Below are positions 2,520 through 7,290 of a stretch of DNA of 43,862 nt, piece after piece. The stretch lies in the NCBI GenBank assembly GCA_025450235.1, contig JANWHX010000193.1, positions 1-43,862 of the forward strand, in the 5' to 3' direction. Within the stretch, counting starts at the first letter, position 1. Every line of letters begins with the position of its first letter. A program made the position numbers and the translations under genes. This stretch comes from Chitinophagaceae bacterium. Its GTDB lineage: Bacteria; Bacteroidota; Bacteroidia; Chitinophagales; Chitinophagaceae. The notes beneath the pieces were generated by a model that was not told where the DNA came from, ran no database searches, and worked only from the letters and a program-made list of their open reading frames with translations.

Positions 2520-2530
2520 GTTAGCAGCAA
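2520..2530 (+). other. Left boundary motif of cassette-like unit 1 (GTTAGCAGCAA)
   Basis: Its first 10 bases are the reverse complement of TGCTGCTAAC at 3076-3085, bracketing the 2551-3063 gene. Confidence 0.6.
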
Positions 2531-2550
2531 TTATGAAACACTATTAAATT

Positions 2551-3063
2551 ATGAGTCGACTCACTAAAACAATTCTTATTATTGGACTTATTCTTCTAAT
2601 TTATGGCTACCTATGTCGTCAATTTCAAATAGGCTTCTTTTGGGATAGTAAGACTATTGGTTTGATCATATTATTCATAACATTACTTTCTTACTGGATT
2701 GACTTGCGCAGAACAAGAAGCCAAAAAGGCAAAAAGACACTTTGGGTTACAATAGGGATTTGTATTTTAATTTTTGGTCTGATCGTTATGCCTGTTGTAG
2801 TTTTTATGCTCAAGACCTCCGATGCTTATGCCACTGCAATCGAATATTTAAAGACAGATCCAAAAATTAAAGATGAGATTGGAAATGTGAAAGGGTTCGG
2901 ACTAATTCCAACAGGTTCAGTGGGGACTACAACAATCAATGGAGCTGAATCTGGAAGTGCCTCTTTTGAAATAACAGTTCAGGGAAATAATAAGAATAAA
3001 GACGTGACAATCCATCTCGAAAAAACTCCTGATAAATCTTGGACGGTAACGGATATAAGGTAA
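2551..3063 (+). CDS. Membrane protein with Coa1/Tim21-like C-terminal region
   Basis: Three hydrophobic segments then SDAYATAIEYLKTDPKIKDEIGNVKGFGLIPTGSVGTTTINGAESGSASFEITVQGNNKNKDVTIHLEK. Confidence 0.7.
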   Translation: MSRLTKTILIIGLILLIYGYLCRQFQIGFFWDSKTIGLIILFITLLSYWIDLRRTRSQKGKKTLWVTIGICILIFGLIVMPVVVFMLKTSDAYATAIEYLKTDPKIKDEIGNVKGFGLIPTGSVGTTTINGAESGSASFEITVQGNNKNKDVTIHLEKTPDKSWTVTDIR

Positions 3064-3075
3064 AACTCAAACAAC

Positions 3076-3277
3076 TGCTGCTAACATTAGGTTTTCGGCT
3101 ATGCTGGCTGAGGAATATATACTCATCGGCATATCGCTATCCACTGTATCATGGTGCGACTTGTCTTCGTAACATCAGCGAAATTTATTCAGCATCAGCA
3201 TTTCTATTTATCTTTAGTTACCGGGCTGAAGTAACACGGAATATCAGCACAGCAGAAAGCCCTGGCCGTTGGCAGCA
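3076..3277. repeat. Structured intergenic repeat A (attC-like element)
   Basis: TGCTGCTAAC-ATT-AGGTTTTCGGCT ... AGCAGAAAGCCC-TGGCC-GTTGGCAGCA; interior shared with element C. Confidence 0.75.
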
Positions 3278-3369
3278 ATATGCTACGATACCTTTGGAAA
3301 AATCATAGTTATTCTAGCTACAGAACCTAAGTGGACAAATAATATTCACCAATTGAAAAGATAATTGTT

Positions 3370-3753
3370 ATGAAAATAGTCGCATATTCGAAAATTAAAA
3401 AAATGAGCCCACAACTACTTGTGGTTGACATTGACCGCTCTATTGAATTCTACACAAAAAAACTTGGCTTCGACATAGACTTTCGTTATGAAGATTTTTA
3501 CGCAGGTATTATTAAGGATGGGTATTCTATTCATCTTAAAACCGGGAAACCTTCAATTGAGGAAAGACAAAACAGGAGAAAAAATCAAGACCTTGACGTT
3601 GTCTTTTCGATAGAAGGTATTGAAGATTTATATGAAGAGCTCTCAAACAAATCTATAGAGTTCACACAACCGTTACGAAAAATGCCTTATGGCAAAGAAT
3701 TTTATATTGCAGATCCCGACGGTTATATCATTTCTTTTCTAGAAGAAGCATAG
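3370..3753 (+). CDS. VOC family (glyoxalase/bleomycin resistance-like) protein
   Basis: MSPQLLVVDIDRSIEFYTKKLGFDIDFRYEDFYAGI...FTQPLRKMPYGKEFYIADPDGYIISFLE. Confidence 0.9.
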   Translation: MKIVAYSKIKKMSPQLLVVDIDRSIEFYTKKLGFDIDFRYEDFYAGIIKDGYSIHLKTGKPSIEERQNRRKNQDLDVVFSIEGIEDLYEELSNKSIEFTQPLRKMPYGKEFYIADPDGYIISFLEEA

Positions 3754-3764
3754 ATTATCATGAA

Positions 3765-4045
3765 CATACTGCTGCCAACAAGGGGTTTTCTGCTATCCGC
3801 CCCGGCGGACAAGTTGCTGGCTGAAGAATATGTACTGATCGTACCGGTAGCTTATCATCTTTAGTCCAAGCTGAACGAATAAATCTCAGCGATAGAATAT
3901 AACATCAACTGAAGTAACTTTACTTAGCACCGGTTTGAGCTAACGAATCACGCCTGCCTGCCGGTAGTGCCGGTAGGCAGGGAATATCAGCACGACTTGT
4001 CCCGCTCCGCGGGAGCAGGAGGCCCTGACCGTTGTGTGTCATGCT
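3765..4045. repeat. Structured intergenic repeat B (attC-like element)
   Basis: CATACTGCTGCCAAC-AA-GGGGTTTTCTGCT ... AGCAGGAGGCCCT-GACC-GTTGTGTGTCATGCT; interior shared with element E; contains two nested palindromes. Confidence 0.75.
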
Positions 4046-4140
4046 GGATAGACAGTACGAACTTTAAAATGATTGCCAGAAATTAATTTCGACAAATTAA
4101 CCAAACAGAAAAAAGTTGTCACAATAATCCATCGAATAAA

Positions 4141-4902
4141 ATGAAAATAGGAATTATTGGAGCAGGACAGATAGGGGGAACTTTGATACGGCAATATTCA
4201 AGAGCGGGGCACCTTGTGAAAATGGCTAATTCCAGCGGAATTGAAAAGCTTAGAAGCTTAGCTTTAGAGACAGGAGCTTCAGGAAGTACATTGACCGATG
4301 TCGCTATTGATGTTGATGTAGTTGTTATAGCCATTCCATTGATTGGAATTCTTGAGTTACCAAAACAACTATTTAAAAAAGCTTCAGCAAGCATTACTAT
4401 TATTGATACTTGTAATTATTATCCTATTAGAGACGGTAGAATTGAAGACATTGAAAATGGAATGCCTGAAAGTGTTTGGGTGTCGAATCAACTTCAACGA
4501 CCGGTTATAAAAGCTTACAACAGTATTCTTGCAGGTTCTCTTATATGCTCAAGTCTCAGCAAAGGCGATCCATTGCGTTTGGCACTTCCTATTTCAGGAG
4601 ACAACAAACAAGCTAAAGATTTGGTATCCACTCTTATTGATGACAGTGGCTTTGATTCTTTTGATTATGGAACACTCCAAGACTCATGGAGACAGCAGCC
4701 AGGAAGCCCTGTTTATTGCACTGACCTAACTTTGACTCAATTGAAAAAGTCTATTGCAAAGGCAAGAAAAGATTTACTACCTGAAAGACGAGAACTCGGA
4801 TTAACTTTTATTATGAAGCACGACCCTGCCTTGTGGATGGATTGGTGGAAAGATTTTGCGGAATACAATAGAGTAATTTATGAAAGTGATTTATCTATTT
4901 AG
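4141..4902 (+). CDS. NADPH-dependent F420 reductase-like / NAD(P)-binding oxidoreductase
   Basis: MKIGIIGAGQIGGTLIRQYSRAGHLVKMANSSG...DVVVIAIPLIGI; Rossmann GxGxxG. Confidence 0.8.
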   Translation: MKIGIIGAGQIGGTLIRQYSRAGHLVKMANSSGIEKLRSLALETGASGSTLTDVAIDVDVVVIAIPLIGILELPKQLFKKASASITIIDTCNYYPIRDGRIEDIENGMPESVWVSNQLQRPVIKAYNSILAGSLICSSLSKGDPLRLALPISGDNKQAKDLVSTLIDDSGFDSFDYGTLQDSWRQQPGSPVYCTDLTLTQLKKSIAKARKDLLPERRELGLTFIMKHDPALWMDWWKDFAEYNRVIYESDLSI

Positions 4903-4945
4903 CTGTGCCTGCAAATATTAACCAACAGACCTTTGTGGCGATCGA

Positions 4946-5242
4946 AGCACGACCGCACAACATGGGGTTTTCTGCTATCCACCCCGGCGGACAAGTTGCT
5001 GGCTGCAGAATATATACTCATTGATATATCACTAGTCGGCTGCATCATGGTGCGACTTTTCTTCGCAACGTCAATTGAAGTTTATTCAACTTCCGCATTT
5101 CTATTTATCTTTAGTTACCGGGCTGGACGTAACACAGAATATCTCCAAAGGAGTCCTTTGGACAGCACAACCTGTCCCGCTCCAAAGGAGTCCTTCGGAC
5201 CGAAAGCGGGAGCAGAAAGCCCTGACCGTTGTGCGTCATGCT
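4946..5242. repeat. Structured intergenic repeat C (attC-like element)
   Basis: AGCACGACCGCACAAC-AT-GGGGTTTTCTGCT ... AGCAGAAAGCCCT-GACC-GTTGTGCGTCATGCT; contains TCCAAAGGAGTCCTTTGGA and CCCGCTCC...GCGGGAGC palindromes. Confidence 0.8.
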
Positions 5243-5316
5243 ATTGAACACTCTGATAATTTAAGAGAATTTTATGCAGGATAAAATTTGAAATGGAAAC
5301 AATAAAATAAATAAGA

Positions 5317-6714
5317 ATGAAGAATTTACTGTTTCTGTTTTGTTTTTTGTTATGTAACCATACGCCTTTCTCCCAAAGTCAGCCTGTTGATTCATTACTG
5401 CAAAAGCTTGCTATTGAAAAGAACGAAGACAAAAAGGTTGATTTGATCGTCAGCCTATTCTTAAGCGGGTTAGACAAAGACCCTTACCTCACTATTCAAA
5501 CCGGCCAGGCAATACTTAAGCAGGGACAGGAAAACAATGACCTCATAAAAGAAGCATCGGCTTATTGCATTTTAGGTACAGGGTACAGAATTAGCGGAAA
5601 TCCTATAAGGGGGTTGCAGGTTCAGCAAAAAGCACTGCAATTGGCAGAAAAAGCTAACAACTTTTCATTATTGGCCATGGTTAAAAACCAAATGGCACAT
5701 ACTTACCGAGACCGTGATGACTGGGAGAATGCTTTCAAGATATATTCCAATGGATTGGATGATGCAGTCAAAGGAAAAAATGTAGTAATAAAAATATGGC
5801 CCGTGATGAATTTAGGTGTTTGTTACCTGAATTTAAATAAACTGGATTCTGCCTTACGTTATTTACAAAGAGCCTATGAATCTAGTATAACAATAAATCA
5901 ATGGGATATACCGTATATGCTCTGGAATTTAGGAAGCGTTCACAGCAAAATGGGCAATTCGCTATTGGCTGTGAGCTATTTTAATATGTCTATTCAAATT
6001 TCGGAATCTTCAAAGAGGTATAGACAACTAAACTTTGCCTATACTGGTCTTGCAGAACATTTTCAACGGATGAACCTACAGGATAGTTGTATTCTTTATC
6101 TAAAAAAAGCACTAGAGGCCGTACAGCATACCCCTTTCTTTTTTATGAGTGTAAAACCTTCAAAAATGCTTGCGGATCTTTATGAAAAAAGCAATTGCGA
6201 CAGTACTTTGAAATATGCCAATATTTATAAAATAGCCAATGATTCGGTATTCAGCAATAAAATAAATCTGGAAATTCAGGTAATGACATTTGATGAAGAG
6301 CTACGGCAACAAGAATCAACAGCAGAAAAAAACAAAGATGAAGAACAACGAAAGCAAAATATACAATATGCTTTGCTGGCATTCGGCATTATCGCATTCA
6401 TAATTCTATTTTTATTACTCAGCCGCAGCATCATTACCAACACTAAGCTCATTGAATTTCTAGGAGTGATTGCTCTTTTAATTGTATTTGAATTTCTAAA
6501 CCTGTTGCTCCATCCTTTTTTAGAACGGGTAACAAATCATTCTCCTGCACTGATGTTAATGGCATTGGTATGCATTGCAGCATTATTGGTTCCATTGCAT
6601 CACAGGTTACAAAAATGGGCAACTTTAAAATTGGTGGAAAAAAATAAGCAAATACGACTTGCAGCAGCGAAGAAAACGATTGAACAACTTGAAAGGAAGC
6701 CTGATAACCTATAG
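5317..6714 (+). CDS. TPR-repeat protein with N-terminal signal and C-terminal transmembrane segments; no kinase domain seen
   Basis: Signal peptide MKNLLFLFCFLLCNHTPFSQSQ, TPR-like repeats, hydrophobic segments near residues 345-425, ends in a coiled region. Confidence 0.7.
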   Translation: MKNLLFLFCFLLCNHTPFSQSQPVDSLLQKLAIEKNEDKKVDLIVSLFLSGLDKDPYLTIQTGQAILKQGQENNDLIKEASAYCILGTGYRISGNPIRGLQVQQKALQLAEKANNFSLLAMVKNQMAHTYRDRDDWENAFKIYSNGLDDAVKGKNVVIKIWPVMNLGVCYLNLNKLDSALRYLQRAYESSITINQWDIPYMLWNLGSVHSKMGNSLLAVSYFNMSIQISESSKRYRQLNFAYTGLAEHFQRMNLQDSCILYLKKALEAVQHTPFFFMSVKPSKMLADLYEKSNCDSTLKYANIYKIANDSVFSNKINLEIQVMTFDEELRQQESTAEKNKDEEQRKQNIQYALLAFGIIAFIILFLLLSRSIITNTKLIEFLGVIALLIVFEFLNLLLHPFLERVTNHSPALMLMALVCIAALLVPLHHRLQKWATLKLVEKNKQIRLAAAKKTIEQLERKPDNL

Positions 6715-6717
6715 ACA

Positions 6718-6925
6718 AGCACGAACGCACAACAAAAGTATTTGCAAAAGCAGGCTGAACAATGAAACATCAGCTATGTGCTACTATCAGCAGTGGTTCC
6801 GGCCCGACGTTCAATTTTCAGCTATAGTTCATAACTTCAACAACATATTTTCAAATGGGCATTTGTTCCAGGCTGGATGTTCAATGAATTCCATGCCTTC
6901 GCAAATACTCGAACGTTGGGTGCAA
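6718..6925. repeat. Divergent intergenic repeat D (degenerate member)
   Basis: Starts AGCACGAACGCACAAC, complementary to GTTGTGCGTCATGCT at 5228; interior retains GGCTGAACAATGAAACATCAGC-like segments. Confidence 0.45.
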
Positions 6926-6942
6926 TTTTAAAAAGACGATAC

Positions 6943-7062
6943 ATGACAAAACAAAAAGATTTCCTCCGAATAGGAGTATTCTATGACGGAACGTTTTTTT
7001 CAAAAGCGCAACGGTACTTCTGGGTAAAACAATACGGTTGGCTTTCTTTAAAAAAGAAGTAA
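6943..7062 (+). pseudogene. Truncated NYN-domain protein N-terminus
   Basis: MTKQKDFLRIGVFYDGTFFSKAQRYFWVKQYGWLSLKKK*, resembles the start of NYN-domain proteins (RIGVFYDGxxF) and stops at the edge of repeat E. Confidence 0.45.
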
Positions 7063-7290
7063 CGCACAACATTAGGTTTTCTGCTATCCGCCACGGCGAA
7101 CAAGTTACTGGCTGAAGAATATAAACTCATCGTCCCGTTCGCTTATCAGCTGCAGTTCGGGGCTGAACGAATAAATCTCAGTAAAAGAATATACCTTCAA
7201 CTTCAGCAACTCGATCGGGCGTCTGTTCCGGCCTAAGCCGGCCCGAACTTTACATGCGACCCTGCAAAACAGCAGGAGCAACAGGCAAAT
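7063..7290. repeat. Structured intergenic repeat E (attC-like left half; right end degenerate)
   Basis: CGCACAACATTAGGTTTTCTGCTATCCGCCACGGCGAACAAGTTACTGGCTGAAGAATAT matches B and C; middle matches B. Confidence 0.7.

Follow-up and report, generated by a model that had tools for sequence, protein, structure and literature searches.

In Bacteroidetes proper, the IntegronFinder 2.0 survey had earlier recorded cassette-less integrases (In0) only, and a single complete integron was added later, that of Salinibacter (PMC9024848); taxon-specific models of the attC recombination site include none for Bacteroidota (PMC8352920). The insertion characteristic of the integron integrase IntI is held to be essential for integron recombination (PMC8138268, PMC9668308), and a classification of recombinases defines an 'integron-like' subgroup whose insertion, though 'essential for integron function', is 'not fully conserved' (PMC8138268). 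The DNA considered here, called the window, is the whole stretch of 43 862 nucleotides of contig JANWHX010000193.1 from a Chitinophagaceae bacterium. An earlier note, made from the sequence alone, had read its positions 2520–7290 as an integron-like array of four unrelated genes, each bracketed by matching inverted boundaries of its own. We conclude that this array is very probably a cassette cluster of an integron system widespread in Bacteroidota, operating through the recombinase, attI and attC mechanism proposed below. In architecture, the system is a complete integron with a non-IntI integrase; recombination itself we infer from sequence comparison. No description of it was found in the open literature, subscription papers and preprints lying outside the search.

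The repeats that separate the genes of the window can be folded, on either strand, into long hairpins in which R'' and R' form the outer pair, L'' and L' the inner one (GGTTTTxTGCT / AGCAxAAAGCC). DNA matches to the first of them, element A, were found in 35 of 150 relatives, and an arm-pairing scan with shuffled controls, carried out on regions from these genomes, retrieved 166 elements in 42 loci; at a score of 26 it gave 218 hits in the real sequences, counted on both strands, and none in the shuffled ones, counted on one strand. Nearly all of these elements measure about 124 or 188 bp, which is the basic length; the earlier note had put it at about 200–300 bp, and the extra length of elements B and C is due to inserted G+C-rich palindromes, found in dozens of other sites in the genome.

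Whether the ends covary by gene or by repeat is settled by this wider set. When the 117 units lying between consecutive elements are considered, the match at R-box positions 5–9 is complete in 86 of the 117 across the gene, as against 8 of 166 across the element and 4.8% of random pairs, and none of 2000 shuffles reached the observed sum (510, compared with a maximum of 322). Since a 'core' set of elements had been picked partly on the presence of R in R' and of Y in R'' at position 4, the test was limited to positions 5–9 and 10–16. The latter behave like the former, except for position 11, where a gene-wise match occurs in 7% only: R' has an A there and the complement of R'' is mostly G, i.e. 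the mismatch itself is conserved (93%). Thus the claim of the earlier note that the ends covary by gene and not by repeat holds in many loci outside the window, and the pattern that it had named as contrary to its reading, ends matching within a repeat, was not the rule in other copies, where element ends agree at the random level. All the boundary sequences that it had quoted lie where it had placed them. It was also right about the G|TT boundary, but not about the TTRRRY expected to follow: R' fits GTTRNNNGY in 143 of the 166 elements and GTTRRRY, from the canonical attC pair RYYYAAC/GTTRRRY, in 9.

Besides position 11, a fixed mismatch is found in the arms, where an A stands opposite a C in about 70 of the 71 elements of the commonest register. 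In canonical attC sites, unpaired features distinguish the two strands, and the fixed mismatches of the present elements, which likewise occur at systematic positions and mark one strand, recall such features. Folding gives a more stable bottom than top strand in 83 of 117 cases and a more stable site in the reunited circle than in the array in 103 of 117. In two loci (L226:13948–20063 and L241:12430–19460) some cassettes have behind them two consecutive sites, of 124 and 84 bp, between which lie what appear to be repeated tiny gene-poor cassettes.

Duplicated cassettes point to the same boundaries. One of 736 bp occurs twice within a single array (L065, 2840–3575 and 5384–6119, 99.9% identity), another is repeated within its array without any change (L118, 12407–12877 and 14718–15188, 471/471 identical), and a third is shared by two genera (L131, 1035–1845, and L125, 7597–8407; 811 bp, 83.6%). 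All three have both ends at predicted G|TT points, so that covariation and duplicates agree in placing the boundary there, with an end sequence that travels with the cassette. Taken together, the 117 cassettes and 166 elements form arrays in which each gene is followed by an attC-like hairpin. Open reading frames (ORFs) run with the array rather than against it by 95 to 4 in 99 units; the median distance from the start of the cassette to that of the ORF is 36 nt, and the ORFs stop 18 nt before R''. Their products are diverse: among 92 cassette proteins, matches at E 1e-4 were to 36 Pfam families, of which almost every one was seen once, including an aminoglycoside adenylyltransferase family, a DNA methyltransferase, restriction-like nucleases, a PIN domain and SUKH immunity-like proteins.

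In relatives, the arrays adjoin the gene of a tyrosine recombinase of about 385 amino acids (aa), in which an N-terminal domain of about 85 aa (W...CWY..P) is followed by a SAM-like and a catalytic domain; the protein ends in SPLD, and the catalytic R, K, H..R, H and Y are invariant. Around this gene, 80 GTDB loci from Chitinophagaceae, Flavobacteriaceae, Cytophagales, Pedobacter, Saprospiraceae, Bacteroidales and Ignavibacteria contain 125 elements, compared with 9 in shuffled sequence, of which 98 lie downstream (30 loci) and 27 upstream (12 loci), with one locus only having them on both sides. In five further recombinase loci from a phylum-wide sample, attC-like sites adjoin the gene in all five. 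Several contigs come to an end at most a few hundred bases beyond the recombinase, as expected from repeats. On a Chryseobacterium sp. SNU WT5 plasmid (L254:11974–15389), the recombinase gene precedes small cassettes whose R boxes match, and therefore the system is also plasmid-borne; a group II intron gene lies further along this locus.

By the criteria tested, this recombinase is outside the IntI family. Its scores with the IntI model TIGR02249 are 164–189 bits for a cut-off of 265, and the match is in two pieces (2–180 and 238–315); residues 184–246 of IntI4, which include the IntI-specific insertion, have no counterpart. With NF040815 ('tyrosine recombinase/integron integrase') the bit scores, 196–219, are just below the cut-off of 220. 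A quick tree, with long branches and an uncertain order, places the family together with IntI apart from Xer (support 93 in the SH-aLRT, the Shimodaira–Hasegawa-like approximate likelihood ratio test) and IntI in a clade of its own (99). When the full recombinase model was compared with the PDB, XerA and IntI4 came out best. All 94 array recombinases have the N-terminal domain, which is absent from the IntI and Xer references; of 297 sampled Bacteroidota genomes, 51 (∼17%) encode it, many of them with arrays. Pfam detects in it a weak resemblance to DUF5710 alone (12 of 26 members, best E 3e-5), a PDB sequence search with it gave no match, and Foldseek with its predicted model (pLDDT, the predicted local distance difference test, 93) gave nothing significant; the best non-significant matches, at E 0.1–0.4, include the SMARCAL1 HARP domain and XPB, which makes the likeness of the predicted fold to HARP only a lead. 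Relatives of the array recombinase may already be in the 'integron-like' set of the published classification (PMC8138268), with their arrays unrecognised.

An attI-like site completes the picture in relatives, where it lies beside the integrase gene. A match to the first R'' is found mostly 70–250 bp after the recombinase stop codon, with at least 9 of 10 positions in 24 of the 29 loci that have a first element. Directly before the R' of the first cassette, many loci have CGTATATTTATGA or a variant of it, which defines attI as CGTATATTTATGA|GTT. Of 77 loci, 16 contain the strict motif at a distance of up to 320 bp, versus 5 of 1717 background windows, and in two divergent loci the same motif is on the opposite side of the recombinase gene. 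Covariation, exact duplicates, the adjoining recombinase and the attI-like site make the integron reading of the earlier note essentially right. Two checks that it had suggested, for precise gain of units between G|TT boundaries and for a tyrosine recombinase next to similar repeats, gave three duplications and the recombinase of the relatives, respectively. Its suggestion of an unusual class was borne out by a recombinase that is not canonical IntI and by sites that depart from the canonical R-box consensus.

Other explanations have to be weighed. The elements are palindromic, and G+C-rich palindromes like the repetitive extragenic palindromic (REP) sequences occur in B, in C and elsewhere in the genome, so one could think of ordinary intergenic REP-like palindromes or miniature inverted-repeat transposable elements that lie between genes by chance. 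But the mean match at positions 5–9 refutes this idea, being 2.38 of 5 for element ends, compared with 2.37 for random pairs and 4.36 for cassette ends; furthermore, what is duplicated is a gene plus its element between G|TT points, and the arrays adjoin a single recombinase family. Chance palindromes are thus highly improbable. Nor is it likely that homologous recombination between repeats alone has spread the units, with the recombinase as a bystander: repeats of the same subfamily are sufficiently alike to recombine, but the duplicates end exactly at G|TT and not inside repeats, each gene keeps its own R boxes, adjacent sites often belong to different subfamilies, and the recombinase and attI are at one fixed end of the array. 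We consider this possibility, too, as having very little chance of being correct.

A third proposal is that a canonical IntI integron, whose cassette logic is identical, built the cassette cluster. One genome of the same order (G107) encodes a true IntI above the model cut-off (L128:3280–4539, 422 bits), and therefore both integrase types are present in the order. However, IntI exceeds its cut-off in this one relative out of 150, yet 35 have DNA matches to the element; the R boxes follow GTTRNNNGY and not GTTRRRY, as seen above, and the arrays adjoin the other recombinase. It is therefore very unlikely that IntI was the builder.

We thus return to a cassette system served by its own recombinase, for which the following mechanism can be proposed. 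The unit is one gene followed by an attC-like hairpin site; at its front, a cassette has the TT(R)NNNGY that belongs to its own site, and what remains of this site, as far as the G, closes it. The recombinase with the extra N-terminal domain most likely cuts at G|TT. On excision as a circle, the two cassette-specific R boxes would reunite into a better-paired site, and insertion would take place at attI (CGTATATTTATGA|GTT), beside the recombinase's own gene. The enzyme would act on a folded single strand, the bottom one being favoured, and the N-terminal domain may stand in for the absent IntI insertion by assisting in recognition of the hairpin.

In the window, all the features of the array are on the + strand. 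Cassette 1 (2521–3268, from TT to G) contains a Coa1-like gene (2551–3063; Pfam Coa1 E 0.0023, below the cut-off) between R' GTTAGCAGCA at 2520 and R'' TGCTGCTAAC at 3076–3085. Its attC-like site A (3076–3278) is a 188-bp hairpin with the L'' and L' arms of the family (about 3088–3104 and 3246–3262) and R' GTTGGCAGCA at 3268–3277. Cassette 2 (3269–4031; ends GTTGGCAGCA/TGCTGCCAAC) has a VOC/glyoxalase gene (3370–3753; Pfam Glyoxalase E 8e-13) and is followed by site B (3770–4041), recognised by its fold and arms and enlarged by palindromes. Cassette 3 (4032–5228) carries an F420-dependent NADP reductase-like gene (4141–4902; Pfam F420_oxidored E 2e-15), and its site C (4946–5238), again recognised by fold and arms, has a palindrome insert at about 5144–5200 that recurs in the genome. 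The copy at 5144–5200 belongs to a REP-like palindrome family (CTCCAAAGGAGTCCTTTGGA) present in more than 20 contigs of the window's genome. Cassette 4 (5229–6915) encodes a TPR protein (5317–6714; Pfam TPR_12 E 9e-18), and site D (6718–6925; detector score 23.5, 187 bp) has R'' CGCACAAC, L'' AGTATTTGC, L' GCAAATACT and, at 6915, R' GTTGGGTGC. Cassette 5 (6916–7290), apparently truncated, has a 39-aa ORF (6943–7062) and, from about 7061, the left half of a site E whose left arm matches the family and whose right half is not recognisable. Outside the array, at 1256–1526, there are intergenic inverted and direct repeats of the CTTCGTGTTC type; an Rfam search of the first 12 kb gave no relevant match. 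A second array suspected in the same genome at C32:9342 (L288) was rejected as a mere palindrome match.

The ends match across the gene in four of these five units. Over the first 10 bases without gaps, cassettes 1, 2 and 4 agree at 10, 10 and 9 positions, while cassette 3 (GTTGTGTG.../...CGCACAAC) is weaker, with 7, and improves with one extra base on the R'' side. Chance is not the reason, because random GTTR/YAAC pairs in the window so rarely reach such values (p = 0.003 for at least 9/10, p = 0.0002 for 10/10). However, the two ends of repeats A, B, C and D agree with each other at 9, 5, 8 and 6 of 10 positions, so gene-wise and repeat-wise matching are told apart by B and D only, A and C being uninformative. 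Taken alone, the window evidence is suggestive but thin.

Several observations weigh against our interpretation. Cassette 5, a unit absent from the list in the earlier note, which starts at the end of repeat D (6915 to about 7070), has ends that agree at 6 of 10 positions, i.e. no match. The window has no recombinase, as the earlier note had remarked, and its metagenome-assembled genome (64.5% complete) has two Xer-like recombinases only. An empty site for the array was not found in nine relatives: these lack conservation of the flanking genes, which makes their synteny uninformative. Only 16 of 77 loci have the strict attI motif, the others having variants or nothing recognisable, and the compared sequences are related rather than independent, so that the statistics overstate the evidence somewhat. 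With these points taken into account, the window array is probably an integrase-less cluster of the Bacteroidota integron system, of the type called CALIN (cluster of attC lacking integrase).

The system extends to resistance genes. On Acinetobacter plasmids, tet(X3) and tet(X5) are immediately preceded by a homologue that shares 51.5% identity with the recombinase over 237 residues (L253:2967–5117 and L256:4516–6537). This gene, annotated tpnF or xerD, resembles the array recombinases in its identity and its position upstream of an GTTATGTGCC cassette start, and differs from them in being N-terminally truncated and in having moved with ISVsa3/ISCR2. Before tet(X3) stands the cassette-start sequence GTTATGTGCCATTTTTGA-ATG and after it AAAAAACGGCTACTAAC-AAGCAGTTTTGCAATAGTGGGGC, a typical R''-L'' half-site, which is then cut off; the 5' and 3' R boxes differ at positions 5–7. 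In a Bacteroidota genome (G204, L278:7393–11184), a recombinase fragment stands ahead of a tet(X) that has 86% identity to Tet(X3), and two further cassettes come after it. This tet(X) has matching R boxes (GTTATGTGCC/GGCACATAAC) and an attC-like site of its own, which, with the adjoining recombinase fragment and the further cassettes, makes it cassette 1 of a Bacteroidota-type integron. From this one may suppose that tet(X3) left Bacteroidota in cassette form. In transformation of Riemerella anatipestifer, a 2026 paper reports that aph(3')-IVb integrates without homology and takes along 27 bp from its 5' side and 140 bp from its 3' side (PMC13148043); the 140-bp segment is attC-like in fold, and the paper left the mechanism unresolved, with no known recombinase. 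This integration would fit the Bacteroidota integron system.

Current detection rules probably overlook this type of integron, since neither its recombinase nor its sites are those of the textbook. With about 17% of the sampled Bacteroidota genomes carrying the N-terminal domain, bacteria of soil and water and those associated with animals harbour a large pool of cassettes that has gone unnoticed. An integron family devoid of the IntI insertion makes the rule that the insertion is necessary testable. For the unexplained integration of resistance genes without homology in Riemerella (PMC13148043), the recombinase is a candidate enzyme, and the system offers a candidate route for the exit of tet(X) from Bacteroidota.

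How does it compare with known systems? With XerA, XerC and XerD (NF040815), after which NCBI names its relatives, the recombinase shares the core-binding and catalytic domains; unlike them, it has the extra N-terminal domain, cassette arrays and, as in IntI, the SPLD C-terminus. The cassettes of the window resemble a CALIN in having no integrase nearby, but differ from it in their Bacteroidota-type sites. Class 1 and sedentary chromosomal integrons have in common with the present system an array of one-gene cassettes with co-oriented genes, hairpin sites, crossover at G|TT, a tyrosine recombinase and insertion next to the integrase gene. In contrast, the recombinase described here lacks the IntI insertion and has an additional domain, the R box is GTTRNNNGY with up to 10 cassette-specific bases, and the sites are of about 124 or 188 bp. 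Finally, most families have the recombinase gene oriented towards the array, whereas in Flavobacteriaceae it points away, as in class 1 integrons.

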